DNA from: a virus
Length of the DNA stretch: 64,000 nt
Strand: one strand, 5' to 3'
Virus record (IMG/VR): IMGVR_UViG_3300032018_000004
Coordinates: 1 to 64,000 of that record
This document shows, piece after piece, positions 13,245 to 29,390 of the stretch; positions within the stretch are counted from its first letter, which is position 1; every line of letters begins with the position of its first letter. Under the pieces are notes generated by a model that was not told where the DNA came from, did no database searches, and was given only the letters and a program-made list of their open reading frames with translations. The translations under genes were made by a program, and so were the position numbers.

Positions 13245-13293
13245 GAGGGAAGAGATGGATTAAGTCTCTTATCGGATGGCCGTCCTATCCCTC
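13245..13293 (-). ncRNA. Three-way-junction RNA motif, copy A (after major tail protein)
   Basis: Read on the minus strand the element is P1 (GAGGG/CCCTC), AUA, P2 (GG...CC), GAU, P3 (AAGAGA/TCTCTT), with P3 abutting P1. The same plan with different stem sequences recurs at 23665-23716 and 29344-29390, so base pairing is conserved while sequence varies. It starts 27 nt after the stop codon of the major tail protein and ends 31 nt before the HNH start. Role unknown; RNA processing, stability or protein binding are all possible. Confidence 0.75.
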
Positions 13294-13320
13294 AAAACCT
13301 GTCAAATAATAAACACTACA

Positions 13321-13743
13321 TTATACTCTTGCAAGCCCACCTGAGACCTTGCAAGAAAAACTAGCTGTCATAAGCGCTGAACGATCCGCTCCAATTTCCC
13401 ATGAAGTGATATAAACCCCTGACCCTGTGATGCTTGTATAGGCAGGGGTGTAATATGATTGAGAATTTAGCCAAAATTTAATAGATGTTAGAAGAGTCGC
13501 ATTTTCATTTGCGGTCCTCAACACATCCTGACCTGCCGTATCTGCTGGGTCAAACAAACCATTAAAACTAATAGTGCCACCATCTAGCAGTCCCATTTTA
13601 TATTTTTTATAGGTATCGCCAAAAGCCGTTTCTTCGAGCTGATCTGAACTCATCCCACTCAAAGACCACGTGCCCATTAATGAAATCACGCTATCTCCAG
13701 TCCCTACAGTTACCTTTGCTCCGTTACCTCTTTGACTAGCCAT
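13321..13743 (-). CDS. Major tail tube protein
   Basis: 140 residues, beta-rich, starting MASQRGNGAKVTVGTGD and ending in SFSCKVSGGLARV. Central DGGTISFNGLFDP and a long beta-hairpin match the tail-tube fold of siphophages. Position is as expected, before the tail chaperones, from which it is now separated by the HNH gene. Its 3' flank holds the structured RNA motif shared with the portal and major capsid genes. Such proteins form hexameric rings stacked on the tape measure. Confidence 0.85.
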   Translation of the reverse strand: MASQRGNGAKVTVGTGDSVISLMGTWSLSGMSSDQLEETAFGDTYKKYKMGLLDGGTISFNGLFDPADTAGQDVLRTANENATLLTSIKFWLNSQSYYTPAYTSITGSGVYITSWEIGADRSALMTASFSCKVSGGLARV

Positions 13744-13755
13744 ATTTTATACCTC

Positions 13756-14382
13756 CTAATTATTATTCTTCATTAAAGCTTTATGCAACTTATATGTATT
13801 CCAATCGACGGAAAGGCTACCGATATGTCCAATGCCCAATGTCGTATCTACAAAAATCCTATATCCCGCTTTCTTTAATTTGATACAAAACCCTATATCT
13901 TCACCAATGGGTCTACCATCTTCTCCAACTGTAAATTCGAACCAAGGCATTTCTGTTTTTAGAAAGACCTCTGTTTTGAAAAGGACACACCCTGTTCCCG
14001 TTGCGTCAACTTCGACTAATTCATTATCTAAAATTTCTTCATCCGGGACTGGCAGATATTTTCCCGGTAATCCCCGATAAAGAAGAGGGTCAAAGGGGGG
14101 GTAGCGCCTGTGGATAAGGCCACCAACCACCGGCAAATCATGTTTCAATAGTTTCGTGATAGTCTGAGGGCCGTAAGACTGGTCAGTATCTAACATGATT
14201 AAATGAGTGCAGCCAGAACCTAGTGATTGTTGAACAATACTATTTCTAACTGCCTCAATTGTCATGCCTGGATACTGGGGGCGAAGGTAAACAAAATCAG
14301 GCTTCTCCATTTTAACCCAGCTATCGAGAAAAACGGTATGGACATGATCTGACGTTAATGGCACCCCTATACCCAACTTCAT
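13756..14382 (-). CDS. Glycosyltransferase, GT-A fold
   Basis: 208 residues from ATG 14382; the start overlaps the previous stop (TGATG). A nucleotide-sugar DxD-type motif is seen in HLIMLDTDQSYG (about residue 65), followed by VGGLIHRRYPP, ATGTGCVLFK and a C-terminal GEDIGFCIKLKKAGY region with the putative catalytic base. These features fit a GT2-like enzyme. It is the last gene of a five-gene cassette placed directly before the major tail protein, so virion or host surface sugars are likely acceptors (inference). Confidence 0.8.
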   Translation of the reverse strand: MKLGIGVPLTSDHVHTVFLDSWVKMEKPDFVYLRPQYPGMTIEAVRNSIVQQSLGSGCTHLIMLDTDQSYGPQTITKLLKHDLPVVGGLIHRRYPPFDPLLYRGLPGKYLPVPDEEILDNELVEVDATGTGCVLFKTEVFLKTEMPWFEFTVGEDGRPIGEDIGFCIKLKKAGYRIFVDTTLGIGHIGSLSVDWNTYKLHKALMKNNN

Positions 14383-15164
14383 CAATTTATCTCCCCAATA
14401 AATTCCAAAACTTCTTTCTTAGATTTACCTTGCAATTTCAGGTAATATATGGTCTTATTTATTCTCAATCTCTTTTCAAAATCTGGTATATTAAAAGCCG
14501 AATCATGTGCTTGGTGCAACGTCAACAAATCATCAGCCAGATAAAATGGGATATTATTTCTCTTTACCGTTTCTCTAAAGTCATCATCATCGTAGGCAAC
14601 TCCAAGAGAAAACATCTCATCAAAACCACCAATTCTTTCATATTGGACTTTTGAAATTGTGCTACAAAAATGAAACATTGCATTCCTATGTTTTGAATGC
14701 TGATACCACATTTGAGGTTCAAAATAGAAGTTTTCTATATCACCTTCCAATTCATTATAATTCACGACATTTAAACAAGAACATACCACATATTGATCTT
14801 TGTTCTCTGCAAATGCTTTATCTAACCCCTCTAGCACATTCCCATGGTGCATGACTTCTGGGTTAGTTATTACAATAAATTCACCTCTTGCCTTTTCAAC
14901 TCCTAAATTAAACAAAGGGGAAGGGTTATAACAATCAAAGAATTCAGATTCTATACATACCTTATCGGCACAATCATCAAAAAACTTTAATGTTTTTAAC
15001 AACTTCTCGTGTTCTTCTGCGTCTTTTCTGTTCTTCACATCTTCAACAATTACCAATTCATAATCATCACGATCTTTATAGTGATGGATGAACGAAGCAA
15101 TTGTGTTCTTCAACTGTTCCGATCTTTTTAAATATGGCATTACTATTGAGTATTTTTTACTCAC
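14382..15164 (-). CDS. GT2-like glycosyltransferase
   Basis: 260 residues, GTG start at 15164 behind GGGAGAG. The N terminus (YSIVMPYLKRSEQLKNTI) and ELVIVED strand are typical of GT-A family 2 enzymes. NLGVEKARGEFIVITNPEV supplies the metal-binding strand in a degenerate form, and GGFDEMFSLGVAYDDDDF is the acceptor-side motif. It overlaps the next cassette gene at both ends and contains a sigma-28-like promoter sequence within its coding region. Confidence 0.82.
   Translation of the reverse strand: MSKKYSIVMPYLKRSEQLKNTIASFIHHYKDRDDYELVIVEDVKNRKDAEEHEKLLKTLKFFDDCADKVCIESEFFDCYNPSPLFNLGVEKARGEFIVITNPEVMHHGNVLEGLDKAFAENKDQYVVCSCLNVVNYNELEGDIENFYFEPQMWYQHSKHRNAMFHFCSTISKVQYERIGGFDEMFSLGVAYDDDDFRETVKRNNIPFYLADDLLTLHQAHDSAFNIPDFEKRLRINKTIYYLKLQGKSKKEVLEFIGEIN
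14961..14989 (-). promoter_or_regulatory. Sigma-28-type promoter inside a glycosyltransferase gene
   Basis: Minus strand: TAAAGTTT (14989-14982), 12-base spacer, GCCGATAAG (14969-14961). This is one of eight such pairs in the window. It could drive the last glycosyltransferase and the major tail protein. It lies in coding sequence, so chance fit to the codons (LKFFDDCADKV) remains possible. Confidence 0.6.
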
Positions 15165-16011
15165 AAATCTCTCCCATTAATTTAAGCAAAAAAATGTCTT
15201 CGGACTCTTTAATATTATCTTTTGTTACTATGTTTTCATATTTTGATGTGCTATTTGCCCCTGCGTACCAATGAACTCCTATTGTCTTCTCCATAAATTG
15301 GTATTGGATTTTCTCAAATAAAGAATCTGCTTGGCTCCATGCAAAGGGATAAATAGCCACAAATGGAATGTTTAAAATGTTAGATTCGCACCTTTCATTA
15401 AATTCTCCAAATTTCAATTTATTATGATGAAAAAAATGTAAGAATAAGTTACTACCAAGCGATTGATATTCAAGCTCTTTGTTTTTTGACTCCTCCAAAG
15501 CTATCCCAAGCAAATAACTAAAAACCATGCTATTCGGAGTAGACATTAAAAACCCTATGCTATGATACCCCCCAGAAAAACAAAAGCAGGCATTTTCTCC
15601 GGGACCAATAGATTTTATATGCAATTCATCCATTGACTTCAAATATAGAATATCAAAATCACTCCAAACTCCTCCTTCGGTTGAAAGAATATATAGCCTT
15701 AAAATATCTGATTTATGAACTTCAGAACATAATTCACCAATGTTAAAAATAGAAAAATCAAATTCTACGACATCAGTATTTGCAATACCAGATAGATCGG
15801 CAAAGCAGTCTTCCCCTTGGTATTCATAACTTTTTTGCTCCTTACTGCCCCAAGATTCCGCTAAAGAAATCTCATTTGAACAATAAACTTTTATCTTCCA
15901 ATCTGGGTTCAAAATTGAAAATGATTTAACAGTTAAGTACTTCATATAGGAAAGTTTTTTATTTCTTCCCCAATACAAATGAAGAATCTTTGGGATGTTT
16001 AAATCTACCAT
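15157..16011 (-). CDS. Glycosyltransferase, GT32 / DXD sugar-binding type
   Basis: 284 residues. The start IPKILHLYWGRNK and the motif KSDILRLYILSTEGGVWSDFD, holding the DXD metal site SDFD, are hallmarks of the GT32-like (Gly_transf_sug) family. C-terminal HWYAGANS contributes a further conserved histidine region. It is an intracellular enzyme that would move a sugar from a nucleotide donor to an acceptor. It sits between the methyltransferase and a GT2-like gene with four- to eight-base overlaps, showing one translational unit. Confidence 0.85.
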   Translation of the reverse strand: MVDLNIPKILHLYWGRNKKLSYMKYLTVKSFSILNPDWKIKVYCSNEISLAESWGSKEQKSYEYQGEDCFADLSGIANTDVVEFDFSIFNIGELCSEVHKSDILRLYILSTEGGVWSDFDILYLKSMDELHIKSIGPGENACFCFSGGYHSIGFLMSTPNSMVFSYLLGIALEESKNKELEYQSLGSNLFLHFFHHNKLKFGEFNERCESNILNIPFVAIYPFAWSQADSLFEKIQYQFMEKTIGVHWYAGANSTSKYENIVTKDNIKESEDIFLLKLMGEICE

Positions 16012-16566
16012 TTATTTTTTACATTTTATAAAAAAGAAAGCTCCATCAAAAAGTTCTTCCATAAAACACACGCTACTGTAATACTCTCCTAGTTTTTTCA
16101 TCCACCACTCTTTATTTTCTTGGATGGGGTGTAACTCGATGTCAAGCATTCTATCTGAATGATTTGCAATCCCAAATAATGCTATTAATGATATAGAAGA
16201 AATACATTTCAATGTCTCATCGATATCTTCAATAGATATATGCTCAAGCATATCATTGCAAAGCACATTATCAAATCTCTTTTTTGATTTGCAAAATGTC
16301 ACGATGTCAGAACATTTATGAGGAACGTCACTCAAAAATTTATTGCAACACTCTTTACTAATTTCAACCCCAAACGCCTCAACACCCATATCCAAAGCCA
16401 TCTTCAAATTATGCCCAGAGCCACAACCTATATCAAGCAATGTCCCTTCAAGGCATGACAAATATGCTGAAATTGGCTCATCTTTTTTATCATGCCTTGA
16501 GGACGAATAACTATTATACGCTGGAATTTCTTTATAAATTTTATCGTATATTTCTTTATTATTCAT
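16012..16566 (-). CDS. Class I SAM-dependent methyltransferase
   Basis: 184 residues. Motif I is LLDIGCGSGHNLKMA (about residues 41-55), the acidic residue after strand 2 is in GVEIS, and motif IV-like VLCNDMLEHI follows. This is the short UbiE/methyltransf-11 type fold. Substrate is not evident. In this cassette it could cap a glycan or modify a sugar precursor. Its ATG overlaps the radical-SAM stop codon (ATGA). Confidence 0.85.
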   Translation of the reverse strand: MNNKEIYDKIYKEIPAYNSYSSSRHDKKDEPISAYLSCLEGTLLDIGCGSGHNLKMALDMGVEAFGVEISKECCNKFLSDVPHKCSDIVTFCKSKKRFDNVLCNDMLEHISIEDIDETLKCISSISLIALFGIANHSDRMLDIELHPIQENKEWWMKKLGEYYSSVCFMEELFDGAFFFIKCKK

Positions 16567-17540
16567 ATAAAATTCACATGAGTTAAATCTTTCATCATGG
16601 CTCCTAATATTTCATTATAGTTTTTATAATAGCAAATTTCACATATTTTCCCATTAACAGGAATGTGGCTTCTTGCAATAATATCTTTTAGATCAAATAC
16701 GCTTCCAAGATTCAATTCAACAGGAAGTTTTTTGGGCGCGTCCTTCTTATAGTATTGACTTCCGCAACAACTATATACTTGATAATCCGCACTTATTACT
16801 GGTTTTAAAAAACAAATATAGCAATCACCACCTTGTTCTGGATGTTCTCTGTTTTGATAAATAACTAAGCTATCATCAGCGCCAAAAGCGGTCACAATAT
16901 TTTTAATCCTAACCATATCAATTTCTTCGGGGTTAAATAAATCTGCCACCAATCTAACATGAGTAAAATTATGATCATTCGCAAAATTAATACATCTCAA
17001 AATCCCATAGATATTAGGAGTTTTGGAAACAACATAGCTAAACGCCCAGTCAACATCGGGGGCTGACTTAATTACCTCTTTCAATTTCTCTTCATAATTA
17101 TCCGTGAATGGGCGAAAATCAGCATGGCTAATCCGGCACCAAGTCACCTTATTTAATATTTCTGGTTTTATGTTGTCCAGAGCAAGGCCATTGTCCACAA
17201 GACCAACTTCAATACCTGACTGGATAAAATACTCAATAATTTCATTAATATTAGGATGCAGACAAGGGCTTCCGCCACCAGTAATCGTTACTGCTCTTGT
17301 TCCCAAATCCTTGCAAATGTCAATAATCTCCATCGCCTTAAACAAAGACATTTCAATTTCTCTGTCTTCGTTAGCGCAACTACAGAATGGGCATTTGAGA
17401 TTACATTTGTTTGTCGGGATAAATTGGATATGGATTGGGGGAATTTTTTTACTGTCATTGATGGAACTAATTACCCTTTCGTCACGCAATAACTTCACTG
17501 GTAGTGTATCAGCAGCGGTAAAACTTAACTTGTCAGACAT
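16563..17540 (-). CDS. Radical SAM enzyme with C-terminal cysteine cluster
   Basis: 325 residues. The radical-SAM cysteines are in CNLKCPFC (C46, C50, C53), followed by the GGG-type SAM contact TITGGGSPCLHP. The C-terminal third has CYICFLKP, SCCGS and ICEICYYKN, an arrangement like SPASM/twitch domains that hold auxiliary Fe-S clusters. Such enzymes act on peptides, sugars or modified nucleosides. It leads the glycosyltransferase cassette inside the virion operon. The substrate is unknown; a virion protein or an activated sugar are the natural candidates. Confidence 0.88.
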   Translation of the reverse strand: MSDKLSFTAADTLPVKLLRDERVISSINDSKKIPPIHIQFIPTNKCNLKCPFCSCANEDREIEMSLFKAMEIIDICKDLGTRAVTITGGGSPCLHPNINEIIEYFIQSGIEVGLVDNGLALDNIKPEILNKVTWCRISHADFRPFTDNYEEKLKEVIKSAPDVDWAFSYVVSKTPNIYGILRCINFANDHNFTHVRLVADLFNPEEIDMVRIKNIVTAFGADDSLVIYQNREHPEQGGDCYICFLKPVISADYQVYSCCGSQYYKKDAPKKLPVELNLGSVFDLKDIIARSHIPVNGKICEICYYKNYNEILGAMMKDLTHVNFI

Positions 17541-17551
17541 TTACTCTCCAT

Positions 17552-17728
17552 TTATTTTCTGCACCTTTTAATTGACTTATTCAAGCGTTCTATCGCAGCA
17601 TCTAACAATGCGGAATCAATGTTGGGGTTTTGCATTCTGACAAGTTTAGCATAATATAAAACTTCAAGCATAGCATTAACAGTATCATGACAACAAATAT
17701 TGCATGGTGCTTCAAATTGTGAATCCAT
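17552..17728 (-). CDS. Small Cys-containing protein, unknown
   Basis: 58 residues (MDSQFEAPCNICCHD at the head, lysine-rich end). The ATG at 17728 has AAGGA seven bases upstream. That ribosome site overlaps the -10 of a sigma-28-like promoter, so a transcript from this promoter would be nearly leaderless. The gene fills the gap between the tail terminator and the radical-SAM gene. No function recognised. Confidence 0.55.
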   Translation of the reverse strand: MDSQFEAPCNICCHDTVNAMLEVLYYAKLVRMQNPNIDSALLDAAIERLNKSIKRCRK

Positions 17729-17735
17729 CAATAAT

Positions 17736-17764
17736 CCTTATCGGAATATGATTAGAAAACTTTA
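17736..17764 (-). promoter_or_regulatory. Sigma-28-type promoter before the glycosylation cassette
   Basis: Minus strand: TAAAGTTT (17764-17757), 11-base spacer, TCCGATAAG (17745-17737). It stands between the tail terminator gene and the cassette that starts with the 58-residue ORF and the radical-SAM gene. Confidence 0.65.
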
Positions 17765-18181
17765 AGACTTTTGCAAAATTATCTCATATTCTACTTGATA
17801 TGTCCATTCCTTTACCACGTTGTCCCAAAATGGACCTAGCACGTTATATCTCTCTACTTTTATATCATTCCATCCGGTTACTGTTATATCACAATTATCA
17901 AAATGAGATTTAAGGTATTCAAGAATTGTTCCAGCTTCCGAAGATGAATTTATGATATTAGAGTGAATGTTAAAAGCAACCTTGACAATTTCAAAGTTCG
18001 AAGCGTTTGTTGATTGGGCGTTTAGGTAATAATCTGGTTTGTCATGTATGAAGAAGTAGACAACGTATGGATATACAGCGGCATCTGCTGCTTTAACGAA
18101 GTAGAAACGATCAGCAATGGCTGTTTTAAAATTACTTGCAACTTGTGATCTTGAGTAGATTGCTGTAGAAAGCGCATTCAT
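17762..18181 (-). CDS. Tail terminator / tail completion protein (DUF3168-like)
   Basis: 139 residues starting MNALSTAIYSRSQ, with YPYVVYFFIHDKPDYY and a C-terminal WTYQVEYEIILQKS. This alternating strand pattern and size fit gpU/DUF3168-like tail terminators, which cap the tail tube and join it to the head. It follows the HK97-gp10-like protein with a four-base overlap, as in many siphophages. Confidence 0.75.
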   Translation of the reverse strand: MNALSTAIYSRSQVASNFKTAIADRFYFVKAADAAVYPYVVYFFIHDKPDYYLNAQSTNASNFEIVKVAFNIHSNIINSSSEAGTILEYLKSHFDNCDITVTGWNDIKVERYNVLGPFWDNVVKEWTYQVEYEIILQKS

Positions 18182-18639
18182 ATCTTATGTTTCTCGACTA
18201 GATTTAAGATTTCATCTTCTGCATCGTAAAGTGCTGGGCGAAGGAATGGGCGCTTATCTGGATTTGTACTTGTCCCTAATTCATGCCACAACCCTTTAGC
18301 TTCTTTGGTCCCTACATGCCCCACAGCCTCTTGCCCACTAGCAGGGGCATCAATCCCCTCAACATCGGATGCTGGACCCAACCCACCAGTTTTGCCGCTA
18401 GAGGTTGCATAGCTTATTGAATCCTTCAATTCTTCTGTGTCTGGGGCGGGAGGGGCAGGAGCTGCTGAAGCTTGGTGCATTCCACCACCAGGTCGCCTTG
18501 ACCGATACATTTCACCCGTTCCCGCAACCATAGAATCTTTAGCTTTTTGAGTCACCAGTTCACAAGCATCCTCAATGATAGCGTTTTCCGCCATTTGAAC
18601 GGCACTTAAAACCGCTACATCATTCCAAACCGCTCTCAT
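18178..18639 (-). CDS. HK97 gp10-family head-tail joining protein
   Basis: 153 residues. The C-terminal signature LWHELGTSTNPDKRPFLRPAL is diagnostic for HK97-gp10-like proteins; the middle is an unusually Ala/Pro/Gly-rich linker (residues about 50-70). It acts at the head-tail interface. Order (connector, head closure, lipoprotein, gp10-like, terminator) is standard apart from the inserted lipoprotein. Confidence 0.85.
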   Translation of the reverse strand: MRAVWNDVAVLSAVQMAENAIIEDACELVTQKAKDSMVAGTGEMYRSRRPGGGMHQASAAPAPPAPDTEELKDSISYATSSGKTGGLGPASDVEGIDAPASGQEAVGHVGTKEAKGLWHELGTSTNPDKRPFLRPALYDAEDEILNLVEKHKI

Positions 18640-19058
18640 TTAAGCAATTTCTCCCCACCCACAACTGCCCCTGCACCTAAAGCTGCCGCCGCAATCCCAG
18701 GAGCTACTAAAGCTGGAGCCAAGGCAGGAATGAACGGGGCAAGCGCCGTGGTCACAGCAGCCTTTACAGCCCCGTCAATTGCTTCTTTCAAAGCTCCAGA
18801 AGCAATTGCTTGCCCCTCAAAAGCTTTAACCCCCTGTTCGTTTAAATCAACTGTATAGTCATTACCTCTCTTTTCAATATGAGCCACAAGAGAAGAAATC
18901 TCCTTCCCGTTATCTACTACCACCTCGCAACAACTCATTTCTCCAGTCGTATGGTTTGTAACAAATGGTTTAACTGAATAATGAGCAGTACCAGCGTTTT
19001 GAAGAGAAGCGCACCCACAAAATGTAAAAAGAAAAACAACAACAAGTATTTTCTTCAT
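18636..19058 (-). CDS. Phage lipoprotein within the head-tail operon
   Basis: 140 residues. A signal peptide (MKKILVVVFLFTFCGC) ends at a lipobox-like FCGC, predicting lipidation at Cys17. The mature part has an Ala/Pro/Gly-rich hydrophobic C terminus (about 105-138) that could insert in a membrane. It overlaps both flanking head-tail genes by four bases, so it is made with the late proteins. Candidate roles are superinfection exclusion or a lysis/envelope function; neither is shown. Confidence 0.75.
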   Translation of the reverse strand: MKKILVVVFLFTFCGCASLQNAGTAHYSVKPFVTNHTTGEMSCCEVVVDNGKEISSLVAHIEKRGNDYTVDLNEQGVKAFEGQAIASGALKEAIDGAVKAAVTTALAPFIPALAPALVAPGIAAAALGAGAVVGGEKLLK

Positions 19059-19375
19059 TCTACTTTCCTCAGTGTTATTTGTAAAAATCTGTTCTTTAAA
19101 GCAACATCTTCTGGTTCTGCAATAATTTCATAAAGCTTCGCACCATTTCTGACGCGATCTTTAGTTGTAATATTCAACCCATCTTTATATTTCATCATCA
19201 GAATGTAAGTAGTTGAAACCCTTGTAGAATCACCAATAAATTTCTCCCACCCTTCAACCCTAGTCAATGTTCCCCTGATATTTTCTACATCAGTCCACAC
19301 AGTTACAAATCCGCCAGCGCCGTCACTAGCATCCGTTCTTCTCTGAATTTGAAAAATCGCTTTTGGACCTGCCAT
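19055..19375 (-). CDS. Head closure / head-tail adaptor protein (SPP1 gp16-like)
   Basis: 106 residues. IQRRTDASDGAGGFVTVWTD near the N terminus and a conserved GTLTRVEGWE core match the phage head-tail joining family. It closes the connector channel after DNA packaging. It shares one base with the upstream connector gene and overlaps the lipoprotein gene. Confidence 0.85.
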   Translation of the reverse strand: MAGPKAIFQIQRRTDASDGAGGFVTVWTDVENIRGTLTRVEGWEKFIGDSTRVSTTYILMMKYKDGLNITTKDRVRNGAKLYEIIAEPEDVALKNRFLQITLRKVE

Positions 19376-20529
19376 TATACTTTAACCTTCCTATATTTAA
19401 AGAGAATTCTAATGACTTCTTTAGGAAGTGATTCTTCTTTATCAAATGATGCCCAAATATTGTGGGCGCGATATTCTTTCAATCCAAAACTATCATCATC
19501 CCTCTTGTTATAAAAAAACTGAGCGAGAATCTTAACTGCAAGTTTCAAATCACTTGGCATATTCACTGAGGTGAACCCAGCGGTGTAGTCAATATAAATA
19601 TTTCCCGCTCCACAAGGCCATCCAGAATATTTTATCAACTGCCCTCTATCTAAATAGGTATCAAAATCAGAAATTGGATTATCTGGTTTTTTTAAGTAGC
19701 ACCAATTATTATCAATTGCACTTAACCCATATGTCTCAATCAATTCTGTGGACTTTACAGCCCCGTAGATGGACGAATTAAGTTTTGCTTCCCACCCATT
19801 GCCAAGAAGGTTAATCGCAGCCACAATGGCGTTTAAGGTGGTGTTAGAGGTGAACGTGACAGTAGCATCGGCAACACCATCAAACACAAGCCTCAACCCC
19901 GTAGGAAGAACAGAAACAGAAGCATATGAGTAAGTGTTTGTATTCTTTACACTAATCACATCTATCTCGCCAATTGCAACCCTATCTATTGCCGTTACAG
20001 GGAAATTATCAATATTGAGAATTGGGCTTCCATTTCCATCATATTTTTCTTTCCTGTATGATGTTTCTTCAAATGTCCTTCCACAATATTCTGAAGCAAT
20101 CTGTTCTGCTGCATCCTTGATAGAAGAAACAACTTGACTAGGGTCTCCGGTTTCAATATCTGAAGTAATTGTCTGGGTGGCTGTTTTGCTTGCCGTGAAT
20201 CCAACAGTTAGCCCAGCATCAGAAAGCGCATGATTATAGGCTATCGTTTTCCCAGTTCCGGCGTTTATGGAAAATTTCATTGTTCCGGGGCTATACGTCA
20301 CAGCAAAGATGATTGTCCCTGTTCCAGTTAGAGTGAGATTGGCATTCATTTTTGTTTGAATTTCTGTTGCTAATCCAGTGCCATTATAATTCCCATCTGC
20401 TAAATTAATATCTACTGGTCCACCAGAAGACGAAGTTACATTTAGCGTGTTATTTGACGGAGTTATGATGAAATATGATGTCTCTATTCCCAAAAATTCA
20501 AGAACTTCATCAAGAGTGGTGATTGCCAT
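19375..20529 (-). CDS. Head-tail connector (gp6/gp15-like) with inserted beta domains
   Basis: 384 residues, far longer than the usual 100-200 for this family. The first helix MAITTLDEVLEFLGIE and the later SIKDAAEQIASEYCGRTFEE plus the final LKLAVKILAQFFYNKRDDD are connector elements. Between the first and second helices (about residues 18-118) is an extra beta-rich segment (VDINLADGNYNGTGLATEIQ). A second insertion spans about 185-265. The insertions probably project from the connector ring, where they could decorate the neck. Confidence 0.78.
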   Translation of the reverse strand: MAITTLDEVLEFLGIETSYFIITPSNNTLNVTSSSGGPVDINLADGNYNGTGLATEIQTKMNANLTLTGTGTIIFAVTYSPGTMKFSINAGTGKTIAYNHALSDAGLTVGFTASKTATQTITSDIETGDPSQVVSSIKDAAEQIASEYCGRTFEETSYRKEKYDGNGSPILNIDNFPVTAIDRVAIGEIDVISVKNTNTYSYASVSVLPTGLRLVFDGVADATVTFTSNTTLNAIVAAINLLGNGWEAKLNSSIYGAVKSTELIETYGLSAIDNNWCYLKKPDNPISDFDTYLDRGQLIKYSGWPCGAGNIYIDYTAGFTSVNMPSDLKLAVKILAQFFYNKRDDDSFGLKEYRAHNIWASFDKEESLPKEVIRILFKYRKVKV

Positions 20530-20536
20530 TTCCTAA

Positions 20537-20905
20537 TTACCTCAAGTAGATGATTGTTTTGCCACCCTTGTTGATGCCAGCGTTGGTTACAGACAAAGAC
20601 AAGGTGCTGTTCACGACAGCCCCTACGCCATGAGTATAGTCTTTGATAGTCGGAACTGCGTTTGAAAGATTAGCCCCAAGCCCATGGAGAACATCAACTC
20701 CGTCACTATCATTCACCACAACATCATAAAGAGTTGTTGGCTGTGTACCACCACCATCTGGAAGCTGAATTACCCTCTGAACCATTCCAGTAAACGGGCT
20801 GGTTGTGGTTGATGTAGCATTACCTGATCCATCTGAAAGCCAAGTAAATGCAACTTTTTTAACAGAAAAAACAGTTAGTTCTGATTTTGTCACTGTGCCA
20901 GCCAT
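20537..20905 (-). CDS. Predicted virion protein, unknown
   Basis: 122 residues, beta-rich (MAGTVTKSELTVFSVKK), with no cysteine and few charged patches, like small capsid-decoration proteins. It lies between the connector and a 267-residue structural-looking gene. No family is recognised. Confidence 0.6.
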   Translation of the reverse strand: MAGTVTKSELTVFSVKKVAFTWLSDGSGNATSTTTSPFTGMVQRVIQLPDGGGTQPTTLYDVVVNDSDGVDVLHGLGANLSNAVPTIKDYTHGVGAVVNSTLSLSVTNAGINKGGKTIIYLR

Positions 20906-20971
20906 ATATTTATCTCCTAATTTAATTTAACAAGCTATATAATTATATTTGGTTATGTTACCTAAATCCAT

Positions 20972-21775: not shown

Positions 21776-22069
21776 TTACTGACTCAACCTTACAGTTGCA
21801 ACGCCGCTAACAAATTCTCCCAACTTAGTGCCAATGCGATAGAAAACACCAGCTTCTGGCTCAAATCCATATTCTTGGGCATTGCTAACAAAAGTCTTGA
21901 CATCAAACCAAGTGTCTCCAGAGTCGAAACTTCTTTGAACTGTCAAAGTGGCACTCCATGTTCCAGAAATAGATACATTAAAATGACCAGTCAATTCAAC
22001 GCTATCGGTAAATAAATTATCAGAGTTGATGACTCTATCTATTTTCTTTTTTGGTCTATTCAGAGCCAT
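21776..22069 (-). CDS. Small Ig-like virion protein
   Basis: 97 residues. The core GTWSATLTVQRSFDSGDTWF is a common beta-sandwich pattern in phage decoration and fibre knob proteins. The N terminus is lysine-rich (MALNRPKKKIDR). Likely exposed on the virion (inference). Confidence 0.6.
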   Translation of the reverse strand: MALNRPKKKIDRVINSDNLFTDSVELTGHFNVSISGTWSATLTVQRSFDSGDTWFDVKTFVSNAQEYGFEPEAGVFYRIGTKLGEFVSGVATVRLSQ

Positions 22070-22202
22070 GTTTACCCTCTTGGATTATTGGCTGAAAAAC
22101 GTCGTTCAAAACCTTACCGCTTAAATCAAAATAAACTTTCCTCCGACCTCTTTGAAAAAAAGACAAAAGAAAGTTTACAATTTTATCAATCATATTTTTC
22201 AT
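22056..22202 (-). CDS. Possible small basic protein
   Basis: 48 residues (MKNMIDKIVNFLLSFFQ at the head, then RGRRK). One hydrophobic helix is followed by a basic patch. It overlaps the next gene by 14 bases. The ribosome site is weak, so this call is tentative. It fills most of the gap after the intrinsic terminator. Confidence 0.35.
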   Translation of the reverse strand: MKNMIDKIVNFLLSFFQRGRRKVYFDLSGKVLNDVFQPIIQEGKHGSE

Positions 22203-22236
22203 ATTATTCTATTCAACTATTATTTTTATATCCCTA

Positions 22237-22270
22237 TAAAGAAAAACAGGGAGGGTTTCCCCTCCCCATC
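22237..22270 (-). terminator. Intrinsic terminator
   Basis: Minus strand: GGGAGGG, GAAA loop, CCCTCCC, then TGTTTTTCTTT. A 7-bp GC stem with a tetraloop and U-tract directly after the 145-residue gene. It would end or reduce transcription coming from the capsid block. Confidence 0.85.
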
Positions 22271-22282
22271 AAATTCTAAAAA

Positions 22283-22720
22283 CTAAGCTTGTCTAGCCCA
22301 AATACCAACCATTTCCTGAATAATCCAACCATCAACGCCATCCGCAACAATCTTGATCATATCACCAAGTTTTGCAGTTGCCTTAGTATTGATAATTGCT
22401 TTATTATCAGCAGCGGTAATACCACAACCCTGGAACTTATCAATAGCAGCAGGAGCAACAGTCACTGCAACGGTACCGTTTGCGCCAGCGTTTACAAAAG
22501 TATACGAAAGGCCAGCAGCGGTAGAGGGAAGAGTGATAGTCTTAGCATCAGTATCGATATATGTCCGATAGCCACAATCGACAGCGGCTACGGTAGTGTC
22601 TGCACTGAGAGTCTGAACTTTTACAGCATCACTATCTTTTGAAACAGGTTTACCAGTTGCAACTACCTTGGTTACAAGTTCACCAGCATTCCAAACACTT
22701 TTAACTTTAGTTACAGGCAT
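22283..22720 (-). CDS. Probable capsid decoration protein
   Basis: 145 residues, Ala/Val/Thr-rich beta pattern with one Cys pair (DCGYRTYIDTDAKTITLP; FQGCGITAADN). The gene is preceded by AGGAGGAT and followed by a strong terminator, suggesting high expression. Position three genes after the major capsid gene suits a decoration or head-fibre role. No family confirmed. Confidence 0.6.
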   Translation of the reverse strand: MPVTKVKSVWNAGELVTKVVATGKPVSKDSDAVKVQTLSADTTVAAVDCGYRTYIDTDAKTITLPSTAAGLSYTFVNAGANGTVAVTVAPAAIDKFQGCGITAADNKAIINTKATAKLGDMIKIVADGVDGWIIQEMVGIWARQA

Positions 22721-22768
22721 AATTTATCCTCCATGCGGATTTAACCGCTTATAGGGAGATGGTTCCCC

Positions 22769-23041
22769 CTATTTAATTTTCTTCGGCCTTCTAGCTTTCT
22801 TAACAGCTTTCGCTGATTTGTCAACTGGTGCTGCCGAAATCATTTTGTTATTAGGCGGTTCATCAATTGATTTTGTTTTAACCTCTTCTCTGAATCCCAC
22901 AAAGTCTCCCACGAATTCAACGGTCCCTCTTCCTTTCAGTTCGTTTGCTTTCACTTCAATTATAGAAAGAAGAGAACCTTCTGGATTGCCCATCCATTCA
23001 GATAGAAATTTAACTTTTACAAATTTATTCTGCCTAATCAT
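22769..23041 (-). CDS. Small protein with lysine-rich tail
   Basis: 90 residues. Residues 1-45 look like a compact domain (FVKVKFLSEWMGNPEGSLLS). The last 25 residues are basic (KKARRPKKIK), suggesting nucleic-acid contact or head-interior location. It sits among virion genes. Function unknown. Confidence 0.6.
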   Translation of the reverse strand: MIRQNKFVKVKFLSEWMGNPEGSLLSIIEVKANELKGRGTVEFVGDFVGFREEVKTKSIDEPPNNKMISAAPVDKSAKAVKKARRPKKIK

Positions 23042-23120
23042 ATTTTACCTTTTAAATTTTTAAAACTAGGGCTACTCAGACGGTAGCCCCATCTCCTTCA
23101 AGTCTTGCTTGATGAGTTAA

Positions 23121-23606
23121 TTAAACAATTGCAGTTGGGGAAACTTCCTGAACAACACGGCCCTTGGAAAGCAGACAGGTGATCGATCCACTAACCGGAC
23201 TATTTACAACTTCAGTTGCTTTTACCCGAACATATTTATTAGTACCGCTAAGAGAAGCAGAATTCACTTCTACGGCGTATACCTGATCAGTCCCGGCAGT
23301 GGTGGTAAAGCCAGACGCGGTTGCAGTCTGCATATCACCCCAAGTGTCACCAGTAGTGCATACCCAATAAACAAAGGGAATTGCAGTTGCAGTGCCAGGA
23401 ACAACGGTATCGCAAGACTCTACGGTAATGGTAGCGGTGCCAGTTGCACCAGCGGCCTTCTGAATGATAAAAGTTGCGTTCTCATACTTACCAAGATTGA
23501 TAATGTCCGTTGCTGGAGTACCATTGAACAAGTCGTCATAAGCAGCCGCACTTGCAGCAGGAAGTGCATTTACCACATGAACATTCTGAAAAAATCTTCC
23601 ACCCAT
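23121..23606 (-). CDS. Predicted major virion accessory (decoration) protein
   Basis: 161 residues, beta-rich, with ATFIIQKAAGATGTATITVE and a C-terminal GRVVQEVSPTAIV. It directly follows the major capsid gene, with the three-way-junction RNA motif in the gap. The GGAGG ribosome site is strong. A capsid-surface protein is the most likely role by pattern and position. Confidence 0.65.
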   Translation of the reverse strand: MGGRFFQNVHVVNALPAASAAAYDDLFNGTPATDIINLGKYENATFIIQKAAGATGTATITVESCDTVVPGTATAIPFVYWVCTTGDTWGDMQTATASGFTTTAGTDQVYAVEVNSASLSGTNKYVRVKATEVVNSPVSGSITCLLSKGRVVQEVSPTAIV

Positions 23607-23664
23607 AATTTATTCCTCCATATATTTTATAAAATTCTTTTTATTATTTACCCCAAATCAAACA

Positions 23665-23716
23665 GTGCGGAAATCAGCCGGGAGAGTTGCTGACTTATCG
23701 GTTCCCCTATCCGCAC
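23665..23716 (-). ncRNA. Three-way-junction RNA motif, copy C (after major capsid protein)
   Basis: Minus strand: P1 GTGCGG/CCGCAC, AUA, P2 GG...CC closed by GGAA, GAU, P3 AAGTCAGC/GCTGATTT. The stems differ from copies A and B but keep complementarity, and the junction strands AUA and GAY are the same. It begins 11 nt after the major capsid stop codon. Unlike A and B it has no HNH gene behind it. Confidence 0.78.
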
Positions 23717-23727
23717 CTAACTAAAAA

Positions 23728-24975
23728 CTATCGTGTTGCCAACGCCACAAACGGAGAAAGCGTATCGCTGGTAGCTTCAGGAGGTACCAATGCCTGTGGC
23801 ATCCAACTTTGACCCGCAACATAAAATGCAAATCTAAATGCTTGCTGGTCATTTTCAAATTTAATATGCATAGAGGTATCAAAACGCATACCTTCACTAC
23901 CAGCGAGCATACCAAGCAAATACTGCTTCATGTTGACAAGCATGATGTCGCCAACAGTACCAAGAGACTTAGCATGATGGCTGAACACAATTGGCAATCC
24001 AAACAAGGTCGCGAAAGGAACGCCAGCCGCGCCATTTGCAGGCATAAAGACAGGAACTCCGCCTGTGCCGACAGCGAGGCTCATCGATGCAAGCTGGGGA
24101 AGGGTATTCGGATTGACAACCCAAACAGCATTAGAAGGGTCAAGACAACGAGAATACATCTTGATTACATTTTCCCAAAGAATGGTAGTTGAAGCTTGAC
24201 CAGTTTCAGCAGTTACGGAAACTAGAGCAGGAGCATTGAGTACACCCTGAGGCTGACCTGCCCCAGTGCCCTTTAGAATTACCCGATTCATTTCATAGTT
24301 GAAGCCATCAACAAAACCCTCACGAAGAATGTTCTCCATAGACATCGGAGAAAACCGGAGAATTTCATCAGAAGCGTAGGCAAGGCCAGTTACTTTATGA
24401 AGGGTAAGGTTGATATAGCCAAGCTTGACACTCTTGGGAGTAAGAGCTTCTTCCTCGTCAGTCCAATTCCAAGCTACATTGCCATAAACCAAATTCCCGG
24501 ATTTGTCGAAGCCATTGACATAGGGGATTTTAACAACATTGCTCTGCATGGGAATCTGAGTACAACGAGCCATCAGTTCATTCTTCTCACGGGAAGCAAC
24601 AAGCAATTCCTGACGAAATTCTTCAGGAACTACATAGCCGCCAGATTCACCATCAGAAACATTCTGAGACGGGGTGCCAGCAGCCTTGGTACAAACAGAC
24701 TCCCAATCGCCCAACTCTTTAGAAACCTTGCGAAAGCCACTTTGTGCAGCCTTTGCAACATCAAGGGCAAAGTGAGAGAAAGACTTGAATCCAGCCTTCT
24801 TATCCACCAATTTCTCGCCAACAACAATCCGCTTCTCTACTTCACCTACAGCTTCCTTAATCTTTGCATCAATCTCAGCAGCCATAGCCTCACGATCTTC
24901 AGCCATCACGCCCTTAACCGCCTCAACAGTGGTGTCCTTTACAAGGGCTTCAAATTCACTTTTTTCCATTGACAT
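23728..24975 (-). CDS. Major capsid protein, HK97 fold
   Basis: 415 residues. Residues 1-60 are coiled-coil, like a delta domain removed at maturation. The HK97-type core begins near ESGGYVVPEEFRQELL (110-125); a GTGAGQPQGVLN motif (236-247) is typical of this family. It follows the protease-scaffold gene and has a GGAGGAATAA ribosome site. It builds the icosahedral shell. Confidence 0.93.
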   Translation of the reverse strand: MSMEKSEFEALVKDTTVEAVKGVMAEDREAMAAEIDAKIKEAVGEVEKRIVVGEKLVDKKAGFKSFSHFALDVAKAAQSGFRKVSKELGDWESVCTKAAGTPSQNVSDGESGGYVVPEEFRQELLVASREKNELMARCTQIPMQSNVVKIPYVNGFDKSGNLVYGNVAWNWTDEEEALTPKSVKLGYINLTLHKVTGLAYASDEILRFSPMSMENILREGFVDGFNYEMNRVILKGTGAGQPQGVLNAPALVSVTAETGQASTTILWENVIKMYSRCLDPSNAVWVVNPNTLPQLASMSLAVGTGGVPVFMPANGAAGVPFATLFGLPIVFSHHAKSLGTVGDIMLVNMKQYLLGMLAGSEGMRFDTSMHIKFENDQQAFRFAFYVAGQSWMPQALVPPEATSDTLSPFVALATR

Positions 24976-25126
24976 ATTTTATTCCTCCAGATTTTTTGTT
25001 TTTATTTCAATCACTTACGGCCTAATATCTCTTAAATATCTCTAGCCAGATTGAATTTTTTATTGACATCCCCGCATATTTTATGTAATGTTAAATTGGG
25101 GATATATGCCTTTTGTTTTATTTATA

Positions 25127-26533
25127 TTAAAAAATGATGCCTTTTGCCTTTTTGATTCTTTCTTCTACGAGATCACTAATTGATTGAGTTTTAGATTTTG
25201 CAGAGAGAACTGATTCGATTACCATCTTTTTAACATCTTCTGGTGTAAAATCCAGATCAATCGTTTGTTTTTTAATTTCAAAATCAATTACATCTTTTTC
25301 TTTCACTTTCTCTGTATATACCTTATCGGCATTTTCTTCAGGAAACTTTAATGTTTTTTCAATCTTTTCGTCAACATACGCACGAATTGATTTAATTTCT
25401 TCAAGAATTTCTTGGAATTTATCGATATCACTTTTGGTGGCAGTTTCTGTTTCTTTAGAATCGATTATCTTTTCTTCTGTATTATCTTCCTGATTATCAA
25501 TAACCATGGTTTCTTTTGTTTCTTCCTGAACGTCCAATGATTTCTTCGTTGGCTTGTCGCAACCTTCATATTGGGGGCAATTTTCTCCATCACAACTACC
25601 GTCTTCCCCATCACAAGGCATAGCATCCTTTTCAGATTTTTCTTCCGCTGCATCTTCTACAACTTCAGTCATTTCTGTTTTTTCTTCGGTTGATTCTGTC
25701 TTTTCTTCGGATGATTCGTCAGAAAAGCTTCCCCAATCTTTCTCCATTGCTTTCCGCAATTTACTCTCTTCGTCTTTAAGGGCGAGAGAAATTTTTTCTT
25801 CCATGGCATCTCTCATCTTGGACATATTGCCTTCGCATTTTTGGGAAACGCTGAGGCTCCCATCCTCATTTTTGACCAATGGCATATAGCCCTCGATATC
25901 AATATGACCAATTACTTTTGCTTTTTCTTCGGTGGGTTCGGAAGTAAGCTCGATGTATTCTTTTGAGTCTTTTAGTTTTTCAACCATTGATTTTACTTCA
26001 GCAGATTTGATTTCCCCCCTCTCTAGGGAGGCGACCATTGATTTAGCCCCGTTAATGATGGTCGCGGAGGGATTCGCTGGTATTGTTACACATGATAATT
26101 CGAGAAGTTCACACTCTTCATATACAGTACAAGGGACTTTCCCATTTTTATCAACATATTTCTGGCTCTTTTCATTGTCATATATTCTAACTGGTCGAAA
26201 TCCAACTGAAAAACTTGACATGAAACCATTTTTGTAAAGAGAATAAATCTCATTTCCCGCTTCCGTATCTGCGAACTTGATTTTGAATTTCAAACCATTA
26301 GAGTCAGTCTTTTGCCAAATAGATTTCGCAACTGGGAGTGACCAGTAATCATGATTTACCAAAATTACTGGATTCATTCTATAATTCTTCAATCCTTCTT
26401 CCGTCCAAGCAGAAGCAAGAATCATTTCATTATGCCTATCGACCTCATTGGTAGATGCATAGCAAACAATTGAGTTTTCATCGTCCAACATTTCGCTTTT
26501 TTGTGCATACGCGAACATTTTATTTTCAGCCAT
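25127..26533 (-). CDS. Prohead protease fused to a scaffold-like region
   Basis: 468 residues. Residues 1-170 are an S78-type prohead protease with catalytic H61 (NHDYW) and serine in SSFSVGF (S109). Residues about 200-468 are very acidic and helical (runs of Glu/Lys, DEESKLRKAM, EEKTEMTEVVED), as in scaffold domains that fill the procapsid and are cut away. A CDGEDGSCDGENC segment (about 310-322) adds an unusual cysteine cluster. A protease-scaffold fusion is known in several HK97-like phages. Confidence 0.88.
   Translation of the reverse strand: MAENKMFAYAQKSEMLDDENSIVCYASTNEVDRHNEMILASAWTEEGLKNYRMNPVILVNHDYWSLPVAKSIWQKTDSNGLKFKIKFADTEAGNEIYSLYKNGFMSSFSVGFRPVRIYDNEKSQKYVDKNGKVPCTVYEECELLELSCVTIPANPSATIINGAKSMVASLERGEIKSAEVKSMVEKLKDSKEYIELTSEPTEEKAKVIGHIDIEGYMPLVKNEDGSLSVSQKCEGNMSKMRDAMEEKISLALKDEESKLRKAMEKDWGSFSDESSEEKTESTEEKTEMTEVVEDAAEEKSEKDAMPCDGEDGSCDGENCPQYEGCDKPTKKSLDVQEETKETMVIDNQEDNTEEKIIDSKETETATKSDIDKFQEILEEIKSIRAYVDEKIEKTLKFPEENADKVYTEKVKEKDVIDFEIKKQTIDLDFTPEDVKKMVIESVLSAKSKTQSISDLVEERIKKAKGIIF
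25322..25350 (-). promoter_or_regulatory. Sigma-28-type promoter upstream of the capsid gene
   Basis: Minus strand: TAAAGTTT (25350-25343), 12-base spacer, GCCGATAAG (25330-25322). It lies in the 3' part of the protease gene, about 350 bases before the major capsid start, a suitable place to boost capsid synthesis. Activity is unproven. Confidence 0.65.
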
Positions 26534-26554
26534 CTAAATTCCTCCTATCTTACA

Positions 26555-26773
26555 TTAAAATAATTGCATTGAATCAAATATGTAGTTTGATCTAATTTGT
26601 TTTATTACATTTCCTTGTTCAATGCCACAGCAATATTCTTCTCCGTTTTGACATACAGATTTTATTTGTTTGTCTTTATAAATAGGGCAAAAATCATGAT
26701 TTACAGGCTCAAATTGCCCATGTGTGTTCATCTTTATTCTTACTAGGTGGTAAATTTGGGTTTTATTTGCCAT
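26555..26773 (-). CDS. Small Cys-containing protein, unknown
   Basis: 72 residues starting MANKTQIYHLVRIKMN. CPIYKDK and EEYCCGIEQ provide three cysteines that could bind zinc. One base overlap with the upstream gene. Unknown function between the phosphoesterase and the protease. Confidence 0.6.
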   Translation of the reverse strand: MANKTQIYHLVRIKMNTHGQFEPVNHDFCPIYKDKQIKSVCQNGEEYCCGIEQGNVIKQIRSNYIFDSMQLF

Positions 26774-27081
26774 TAACTTCTTCTACATAGAAAATTCATC
26801 AAACGTCTTGAGATAGATATGATATTATCAAAATATCTCCAATCCCCTTTTAATTCTGGGACCACTAAATTTTCATCTTCTTTAATTTCTACTAATTTAA
26901 ATTTCTTAAATAGTTTTACCAATTCTCCATCTTTAATTTCTGGAGTGTCTGGATAGTATTCACATGAAATAGTCAACAAGCTATCAACTTCGCATTCCAT
27001 ATTGAATTTCTTACAACGCTTTGGTAACCCAAGAATTTTAATTAAATCAGTTACTTCTTTGCTATGCCCATTAAAAGCCAT
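26773..27081 (-). CDS. Conserved-looking small protein, unknown
   Basis: 102 residues (MAFNGHSKEVTDLIKILGLPKRC). The N-terminal part resembles a short helical domain found with the recognition pattern of small phage head-gene neighbours, but no family is recognised. Coupled to flanking genes by a one-base gap and one-base overlap. Confidence 0.6.
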   Translation of the reverse strand: MAFNGHSKEVTDLIKILGLPKRCKKFNMECEVDSLLTISCEYYPDTPEIKDGELVKLFKKFKLVEIKEDENLVVPELKGDWRYFDNIISISRRLMNFLCRRS

Positions 27082-27082
27082 T

Positions 27083-27859
27083 TCAGTTCTCCCTCACCAT
27101 TCTCATTTTCTCCAAAGTGGTTGTTTCCATGTCGAATCTTCCTGGCTTAAATGAATCAAGAAGCACTAACCCCTTCCAGTATTCAATTATCCGACCATGA
27201 ATATAATCCTCTTCATCCTCAAAGAAACAACCAACAACCAGCACCTGTTGAAGATCATCCTGACCGTGACGCTTAAAATTTTCTTCTGCTTTACAATGCG
27301 TATGCGCGAATACAACACTACCAAACATTACTTGACTAACTTTCTTTGTTATATTAACACCAGAGATTTCTTTTGCCTTATTGAAAGGAATGTGGGTGAA
27401 GGCAATATCATTTATGTAGTAGTATTCACGATATGGAATAAATTTAATTCCACGCTCTCTCAATTTTAAGTCCTGATCTACGCTAACCAAACCCTCAAAT
27501 GTTGGATCGCTCTCAAGGTATCTGTCGAGGCGATTCTCGTGATTTCCATTCAAATAAATAATTTCTGGCCGATAAATTTTTTCTTTATTTTTCCTTTGTC
27601 TATCTTGCAACTCATTCAATGGGTAAAAAATAATATCAAGTGCTTTATTTCCAGTATCGATTTCTTTCTTGTACCTTTTCCCTTCCATTTTCATACGCTT
27701 ATCTCTATCCCAACCAGACAAGCACTGAAAAGTTAAAAAATCCCCCATAAAAACAATATAATCCGGCTTTTTTTCGATGATATATTGACCTAGATATAAA
27801 AACCTATCCAAATCATCATCCGCTGAAACGTGACAGTCGCCTATCGGCAAAATTAACAA
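27083..27859 (-). CDS. Calcineurin-like metallophosphoesterase
   Basis: 258 residues, TTG start at 27859 behind GGGAGAG. All blocks of the family are present: PIGDCHVS (D-x-H), FMGDFL, LNGNHENR (GNHE) and VFAHTHC (H-x-H type). These enzymes use two metals to cut phosphodiesters or phosphomonoesters. The large family also covers nucleases and cyclic-nucleotide hydrolases. Position between portal and protease is unusual; it could act on host signals or on DNA. Substrate unknown. Confidence 0.88.
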   Translation of the reverse strand: MLILPIGDCHVSADDDLDRFLYLGQYIIEKKPDYIVFMGDFLTFQCLSGWDRDKRMKMEGKRYKKEIDTGNKALDIIFYPLNELQDRQRKNKEKIYRPEIIYLNGNHENRLDRYLESDPTFEGLVSVDQDLKLRERGIKFIPYREYYYINDIAFTHIPFNKAKEISGVNITKKVSQVMFGSVVFAHTHCKAEENFKRHGQDDLQQVLVVGCFFEDEEDYIHGRIIEYWKGLVLLDSFKPGRFDMETTTLEKMRMVREN

Positions 27860-28311
27860 GTCTTTCTCTCCCTATTAAGATTTAAATTGCTGAATCCAAC
27901 CAATTGCTCTCTTGCAATTCTACTCGCATCATTCTTCCTGTAATTATTCCAAGCAACCCACCCTCCAATTCTTAAAGCCCTATAAATTACAGCTCTCTGC
28001 CATTTAGATACACCAAGGACATCCATTGCTTCTAACAGTAATTGGTCACTTGCTTTCTGCGACCCCAAAAGATTCGTTTTATAGAGATGATCATGTAGTA
28101 CAGCGGCCTTGCCATATTGCCCCCAAGGAGAGAGGATGTTTTGGACTATTCCTGGTATGCTTGCGCCATCAGTGATGAACCCAATCGGCACCTCTATAAT
28201 CTGTTTAGAGAGCATTCCCCCGACACGGTAGCGGAAATGCTCTCTAAGATAGAAGGTTTCAGATTCTCCGTCAACTGGGGTGAGGAGGAGTTGGGTTGTA
28301 AAACTAGACAT
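27853..28311 (-). CDS. DUF1353-family phage protein
   Basis: 152 residues. The family core is plain: GFITDGASIP, then AAVLHDHLY and VIYRALRIGGWVAWN. The conserved His/Asp residues suggest a metal-dependent hydrolase, possibly acting on peptidoglycan, but the activity of DUF1353 is not settled. Overlaps the phosphoesterase gene by seven bases. Confidence 0.88.
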   Translation of the reverse strand: MSSFTTQLLLTPVDGESETFYLREHFRYRVGGMLSKQIIEVPIGFITDGASIPGIVQNILSPWGQYGKAAVLHDHLYKTNLLGSQKASDQLLLEAMDVLGVSKWQRAVIYRALRIGGWVAWNNYRKNDASRIAREQLVGFSNLNLNRERKTC

Positions 28312-28314
28312 TAA

Positions 28315-29307
28315 TTAACATCCTTTATGATCATGGCAGTCTTCGCATGTTATCAGTTGATGTGACATGTTATCTGCCTCGCTTATGTATTTAGATACCA
28401 TCATATTGTGATGGATAATTAATTCAGATTGCTGTTTCTCTTTTCCGCATTTATCGCAGAAATTATACCCGAATTCGTCTGTCTGCAATTCAAGCAGTGC
28501 CTGACGATTTACGGGTTGGTTGCAACGAGCTTGTTTTGCTACGTTCCTTAAAGATTTAGGGGTGTTCACTGTTCCAAATATATCGCACTCCTGCTTGCAC
28601 TTTTCAGAACAATAGAGTCTATTTTCTCCTCTTAAAACACCACTTAATGCACCTATTCTCCATCTAATTTCCGCATTCGTTACGGGAAAATATTCCTTAC
28701 AATGAGTGCACCTACACCATAATTCGTTATCCCCTACTAATATTGGCTCTTCTTCAATGGTTAATCTTACTGCATATGTAGAATAATTTGCAATTTTATT
28801 TCTATGGTTTCTGTCTCTTTCTATTATAATTTCCCTATTCTTCTTCCGGTATTCCTTGGTCTTTACTTCTATTATTTTTTTATTGTTATTATAATATTTG
28901 TTTGATTTATCTATAATTGCTTCAGAATTTCTTTGATAATACTCTTTTCTCCGCGCTACAAATTCTTTATCGTGTTTATTAATTAAATATTTTTTATTTA
29001 GTTTCTTTTTTATTATTTCCCTATTTTTAACCCGATATTTATTAAAACATTCTTTGCAAATATAGCAAAGCCCATCTTTACTTCTATTGTCTTTATAAAA
29101 TCTATTTATATTTTCAACTACATTGCAGCGACTGCATCTCTTCAATCCATCTGGTAAAATTTCTTTTGGTGGATGCTTTCTTATTCTGGCATTACGGCAC
29201 TGTTTACATTCATTTCTCCTTCCATCTTTTGAATCTTTCCTTTTATAAAATTCATTTAACCATTTTTCAATTTTACACTTTCTACAAACTTTTACTTTCG
29301 TTTTCAT
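28315..29307 (-). CDS. HNH endonuclease with tandem zinc fingers
   Basis: 330 residues. Two N-terminal four-cysteine units (CRKCKIEKWLNEFY...ECKQC and CSRCNVVENINRFY...CKEC), a long Lys/Tyr-rich helical linker, a third unit (CRCTHCKEYFPV ... YCSEKC), and a C-terminal HNH-type site (ELIIHHNMMVSKY...LITCEDCHDHK). It is a free-standing homing-type nuclease inserted between the DUF1353 gene and the portal, directly behind RNA motif copy B. Confidence 0.87.
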   Translation of the reverse strand: MKTKVKVCRKCKIEKWLNEFYKRKDSKDGRRNECKQCRNARIRKHPPKEILPDGLKRCSRCNVVENINRFYKDNRSKDGLCYICKECFNKYRVKNREIIKKKLNKKYLINKHDKEFVARRKEYYQRNSEAIIDKSNKYYNNNKKIIEVKTKEYRKKNREIIIERDRNHRNKIANYSTYAVRLTIEEEPILVGDNELWCRCTHCKEYFPVTNAEIRWRIGALSGVLRGENRLYCSEKCKQECDIFGTVNTPKSLRNVAKQARCNQPVNRQALLELQTDEFGYNFCDKCGKEKQQSELIIHHNMMVSKYISEADNMSHQLITCEDCHDHKGC

Positions 29308-29343
29308 TATATACCTCTGTAGTATATTCTGATTAATTAAATG

Positions 29344-29390
29344 GTGGAAATTGGTTCAGAATACCAACTTGTCGGACGCCTCCTATCCAC
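29344..29390 (-). ncRNA. Three-way-junction RNA motif, copy B (after portal)
   Basis: Minus strand: P1 GTGG/CCAC, AUA, P2 GGA/TCC closed by GGCG, GAC, P3 AAGTTGGT/ACCAATTT. It begins 21 nt after the portal stop codon and precedes an HNH gene by 36 nt. Same layout as copies A and C. Confidence 0.76.

Follow-up and report, generated by a model that had tools for sequence, protein, structure and literature searches.

A phage RNA family with a conserved three-way junction and a P3 loop complementary to two sites ahead of the next gene

A family of folded RNAs built on a conserved three-way junction recurs in more than 200 phage and prophage loci, and the loop of its third stem, L3 of P3, is in most members complementary to two short downstream sites, S4a and S4b. 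Three copies lie in the window, the whole stretch of 64,000 nucleotides that was analysed (positions 1 to 64,000 of IMG/VR virus record IMGVR_UViG_3300032018_000004). The fold, the two complementary targets, their placement relative to the start codon and the enrichment of endonuclease genes behind the RNA are features of the sequences themselves. From these features, the RNA is proposed, at a probability of roughly 0.65, to be a 5′-leader element whose antisense P3 loop would control translation of the next gene with a logic like that of the C4 RNA.

The three-way junction in the window and its relatives

Each of the three minus-strand elements follows the plan P1-AUA-P2-GAY-P3, with P3 abutting P1 (Table 1). 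The original prediction had described this plan and the individual stems correctly, and it had also placed the elements accurately at 27, 11 and 21 nt after the stop codons of the major tail protein, major capsid and portal genes (ORFs ending at 13321, 23728 and 29412, respectively). The core pattern has exactly three matches in the window and none in shuffled sequences, and a structural scan likewise returns three matches there, as against zero over 300 shuffles; chance is therefore excluded as the source of the pattern. The parent virus record of the window (80,974 bases) holds no further exact copy. Folding of the single window copies gives weak support, with z-scores of -1.0, -1.9 and -0.9; for copy 1, the minimum-energy prediction differs from the three-way junction. 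The case for the structure is one of sequence comparison rather than of thermodynamic folding.

Table 1. Positions of the RNA copies, their loop targets and neighbouring features in the window.
Feature	Position	Strand	Details
RNA copy 1	13245..13293	-	Core pattern match; R1 52.7 bits; P1 GAGGG/CCCTC, AUA, P2 GGA-CGGCCA-TCC, GAU, P3 AAGAGA/TCTCTT
Copy 1 loop L3	13256-13264		CTTAATCCA
Copy 1 S4a	13230..13235	-	TGGATT; complementary to copy 1 L3
NUMOD3/HNH homing endonuclease gene	12296..13213	-	305 aa; behind copy 1
Small ORF	12143-12311	-	About 56 aa (MTPLHKMIAAG...); start overlaps the end of the endonuclease gene
RNA copy 2	23665..23716	-	Core pattern match; R1 48.4 bits; P1 GTGCGG/CCGCAC, AUA, P2 GG-GGAA-CC, GAU, P3 AAGTCAGC/GCTGATTT
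Copy 2 loop L3			AACTCTCCCG
Copy 2 S4a-like site	23651..23655	-	TGGGG
Copy 2 S4b-like site	23615..23619	-	GGAGG, which is the Shine-Dalgarno sequence
Gene behind copy 2	23121..23606	-	161 aa; phrog_5707, function unknown; adjoins the capsid gene
RNA copy 3	29344..29390	-	Core pattern match; R1 49.4 bits; P1 GTGG/CCAC, AUA, P2 GGA-GGCG-TCC, GAC, P3 AAGTTGGT/ACCAATTT
Copy 3 loop L3			ATTCTGA
Copy 3 S4a	29326..29332	-	TCAGAAT; complementary to the whole of copy 3 L3
Copy 3 S4b	29315..29319	-	CAGAG; overlaps the Shine-Dalgarno sequence
Endonuclease VII/HNH-like gene	28315..29307	-	330 aa; behind copy 3
Possible -10 box of copy 3	29402..29407	-	TATAAT, 11 nt before P1; read from sequence
tRNA-Thr (anticodon TGT)	31156-31231	-	Directly behind the start of a large-terminase-like gene region (ORF 31235-32971)

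Relatives were collected by pattern and by covariance model. When viral contigs were first scanned with the pattern, 120 loci were found, about half of which have the complete structure with unrelated stem sequences; the other exact matches, without P1 and P3, were taken as chance. An alignment of 54 elements served to build a covariance model, R1. The homologues that the original prediction had named as support were found in number, often just after virion genes and with compensatory changes. Later scans relied on P2 and the junction sequence with no pairing condition on the P1 or P3 stems, and nearly every locus that they retrieved carries the whole element. Matches to R1 include Curvibacter phage P26059A, Dulem virus 33, Vibrio, Aeromonas and Psychrobacter phages, and phage vB_KsaM-C1. 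The bacterial loci fall mainly in Alphaproteobacteria, with some in Deltaproteobacteria and others in an Acidobacterium, a Planctomycete and a Kuenenia. Occurrence is sporadic: a search at reduced sensitivity detected the element in 3 of the 289 genomes scanned from one class. When two further consensus copies were compared with phage sequences by BLAST, no useful match was obtained. A 23-nt match in a Gordonia phage was rejected as chance because it falls within the coding sequence of an HNH protein and R1 had no match at that locus. About 2 kb from one R1 element, at L018:2344-2415, lies a RAGATH-18 RNA, the guide RNA of IS607 TnpB.

The covariation claimed for the three copies, in which changes on both sides of a stem keep its pairing, extends to the family, with 97-98% of cells paired. 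The first alignment, of 54 relatives, has 97.1% of cells paired and both-sided changes at 11 of 16 pairs, figures that are partly built in since these sequences had been pre-filtered for P1 and P3. Because that filter had shaped the set, covariation was assessed again on independently chosen loci, comprising 81 elements drawn from bacterial genomes and from named phages, nearly all retrieved through P2 alone; 97.8% of cells are paired as compared with 35-53% in slid controls, again with both-sided changes at 11 of 16 pairs. The junction bases are nearly invariant, and the stems and loop are variable. At one P3 position, the 81 sequences have 45 G-U and 35 G-C pairs, and this abundance of G-U favors a structure formed by RNA over a hairpin formed by DNA. 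A DNA-level hairpin for homing or recombination, or a self-cleaving ribozyme, would suit the compact conserved core and the mobile gene context; it is the least probable account of the element, as the targets described below are positioned relative to start codons. The ribozyme role suggested in the original prediction gained no support, and the three elements have no match to an Rfam ribozyme up to E=10.

The P3 loop and its two targets

In a test set of 142 non-redundant elements, L3 is complementary to the downstream sequence over a run of at least 5 bases in 118, as compared with about 29 when downstream sequences are swapped. The complementarity falls in two sharp peaks, both of which are repeated in an independent set of 98 elements. 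S4a starts mostly 6-12 nt after P1 (about 8) at a near-constant 14-15 nt from the junction, and S4b starts mostly 17-24 nt after P1, and its commonest end point is 7 nt ahead of the start codon, the position at which a Shine-Dalgarno sequence works. Both sites are present in 119 of the 142 elements, and in 90 of these 119 S4b overlaps or abuts a Shine-Dalgarno-like sequence, a signal that is partly generic anti-Shine-Dalgarno character because all Shine-Dalgarno sequences are purine-rich; the swapped controls retain that character. The two sites use overlapping L3 bases in 117 of 119, so their pairings are mutually exclusive. The mean pairing strength is equal (S4a -7.2 and S4b -7.2 kcal/mol), which leaves the winning pairing undecided at the level of sequence. 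The two-target complementarity is described here as new, and part of it may be known to those who described the Rfam family int-alpA, discussed below.

Of the three window copies, copy 3 conforms to this pattern. The S4a of copy 1 is strong, and no S4b of at least 4 pairs was found over the Shine-Dalgarno sequence of that copy (AGGAGG, 13220-13225); the S4b-like site of copy 2 is unusually distant from P1. Both of these copies count against the leader model. In a separate observation, copy 1 and the second, minus-strand copy of L029 have an identical L3 and an identical leader around S4a and the Shine-Dalgarno sequence, and differ in their stems and in the next gene, a likeness which suggests, from the sequences compared, that the loop and target have been exchanged as a module.

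Two exclusive pairings of equal strength are also the anatomy of a switch. An alternative explanation is a ligand- or protein-sensing cis switch, in which a factor from the phage or the host, bound at the conserved junction (GGAUAGG..CCGAYAAG..YUUCC), would choose between L3-S4a and L3-S4b. The near-invariance of the junction amid variable stems and loop is as expected for such a sensor; however, the invariant bases could merely serve folding, the 138 next genes share no common metabolic theme, and none suggests a ligand, so that this explanation is considered unlikely. The constant spacing of S4a from the junction would also accord with an exonuclease-blocking pseudoknot that protects the endonuclease mRNA from 5′ decay. 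Flaviviral xrRNAs have the same topology, a three-way junction with the P3 loop paired downstream of P1. Such a block is highly improbable here, as the likeness is merely topological, the second, equally strong target at the Shine-Dalgarno sequence is left without an explanation, and the abutting P1 and P3 would form a continuous 15-bp stack that would strain the L3-S4a pseudoknot.

The P2 loop has a feature of its own. Among distinct P2 types with loops of at least 5 bases, 25 of 29 have a central 4-nt palindrome, where 11 are expected and none of 5000 shuffles reached this count. A fresh scan found it in 9 of 14 new P2 types (4.4 expected, P = 0.006), and pattern matches without the structure had it in 3 of 10 (3.2 expected). 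Varied loops that remain self-complementary suggest loop-loop (kissing) dimers, and the excess could come in part from stems that extend inward. Many other elements have GNRA-like P2 tetraloops, which are unsuited to such kissing. It is tentatively conceivable that the RNA forms a homodimer through P2, with its two identical P3 loops filling S4a and S4b of one mRNA; such a dosage-sensing antisense dimer would silence the homing endonuclease in phages that carry it and release it upon entry into a naive genome. If this were true, the RNA would respond to its own copy number, an unusual form of control.

Downstream genes and mobility

The identity of the next gene was assessed with PHROG profiles on a systematic sample from the 138 next genes, as sorting them by regex lacked the necessary sensitivity. 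Of the 30 sampled, 14 are endonucleases. Across all 138, the profile tallies include 29 for endonuclease VII, 19 for homing endonuclease phrog_314, 16 for HNH_3 and 12 for GIY-YIG, with overlap, since one gene can match more than one profile. The remainder includes a Rha-type antirepressor, an AlpA-like excisionase/regulator, tail and head proteins, and unknowns; that about half of the downstream genes are not recognizable endonucleases is a further point against the leader model. Several loci (L017, L022, L025, L082, L119 and L238) have the RNA followed, in place of an endonuclease, by a recurring protein of unknown function (MALFVANLTK...), which is probably phrog_6737. The Rha-type regulator/antirepressor-like genes behind the RNA at L155:5643-6167 and L296:2010-2534 recall C4 and ant of phage P1.

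The RNA and the endonuclease gene vary in presence and absence among relatives, and some orthologous sites are without the RNA. In the close relative L435, whose tail protein is 87% identical to that of the window, the RNA is kept and the endonuclease gene is absent; the small ORF listed in Table 1 comes at once after the RNA there, and the loop is altered such that complementarity is no longer evident. A search of relatives of the gene downstream of copy 2 found no RNA, and copy 2 is probably a solo copy without an endonuclease gene. Cassettes on the strand opposite to their neighbors occur in L044, L085, L096, L425 and L434. A TATAAT-like box is enriched before P1, ending 6 and 4 nt upstream in 20 and 10 of 140 elements, respectively, against 0.6 per position. 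The opposite-strand cassettes, the patchy occurrence and the -10-like box of its own fit an autonomous mobile cassette.

The original prediction had tied the element to the virion genes that precede it. The placement is often as described, as same-strand upstream genes are often head or tail proteins with a median gap of 17 nt, and this would be in keeping with a 3′-UTR element of the upstream gene acting in mRNA stability, processing or capsid binding. The emphasis on the upstream gene was nonetheless wrong, because the loop has its complement in the ribosome-binding region of the gene that follows, of which the RNA would be the 5′ leader, and the element often has its own -10 box. Some of the RNAs come after opposite-strand genes, and relatives of the portal and capsid genes, when searched, had no such RNA. 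A 3′-UTR role is thus very unlikely, and nothing was found in favor of a capsid-protein binding site.

Relation to known RNA families and proposed function

Searches of Rfam gave no relevant match for the whole window at the gathering score or for the three elements up to E=10. The original prediction recognized no named family, which stands for the window copies insofar as they do not reach the gathering score of int-alpA (RF02996; 35.8 bits) and have no match to it at E=10, and does not stand for the element, which is related to int-alpA. Several R1 relatives score at or above that threshold (L098, L017, L425, L095, L013, L006 and L071), and Infernal aligns int-alpA base for base with the core of R1 relatives in the same three-way junction. 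These alignments contain the UA-G...C-GA-AAG core and the downstream G-rich segment of int-alpA, and the window copies share the R1 fold. By eye, int-alpA members in L126, L456, L458 and L460 also have a loop with two downstream targets. The core differs in having AUA and GAY where the int-alpA consensus has CUA and GAA. A divergent AUA/GAY variant, related to int-alpA and C4-like in working, is the best description of the window copies. Rfam labels int-alpA as an sRNA alone, and does not give a function.

C4 has three stems, is processed by RNase P and covers a ribosome-binding site with its b′ loop (PMC5320573). The C4 RNAs of P1/P7 and P4 resemble the present element in having three stems with a P3 loop antisense to a ribosome-binding region, and in the location of their targets, immediately after the RNA and shortly ahead of the following start codon. 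In the P1 record, C4 lies at 48343-48419; target a2 comes four bases after it, and b2 immediately precedes icd. Complementarity between the P3 loop and the ribosome-binding region of the next gene is found across the present family, and in the window it is clear for copy 3. In contrast, the antisense segment for a2 in C4 lies in the junction strand, whereas here there are 0 nt between P3 and P1. Membership in the C4 antisense RNA family (RF01695) was rejected, as the Rfam C4 model matches the P1 and P4 controls and not the elements; conversely, R1 has no match in phages P1 or P4. Structured RNA is also known to limit translation of the T4-type homing endonucleases I-TevI, mobE and segB (PMC3014915, PMC2988022); simple local hairpins serve there, while in the present family the loop of a conserved junction would reach the start site at a distance.

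According to the proposed leader mechanism, the transcript, often starting near its own promoter, would fold into the three-way junction and offer L3 as an antisense to S4b, which lies where ribosomes bind ahead of the next gene, a homing-type endonuclease gene in about half of the cases. Once L3 is paired with S4b, the 30S subunit would be kept from binding and the protein level would stay low, with S4a acting as a second copy of the target that competes for the same L3 bases. Folding order, RNA processing or dosage may set the choice between L3-S4a and L3-S4b, and hence whether the start site is open or shut; the action could be in cis, in trans or both. Processing by RNase P, as for C4, is possible. 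The repression and the switch are what we infer from the arrangement of loop and targets.

A function and a directly testable mechanism are thereby proposed for a widespread phage RNA family that has been listed merely as an sRNA candidate. The family is linked to freestanding endonuclease genes whose products belong to several unrelated types of nuclease, and a wider class of RNAs, all with an antisense loop directed at a start site, would take in the C4 immunity RNAs of phages P1 and P4.
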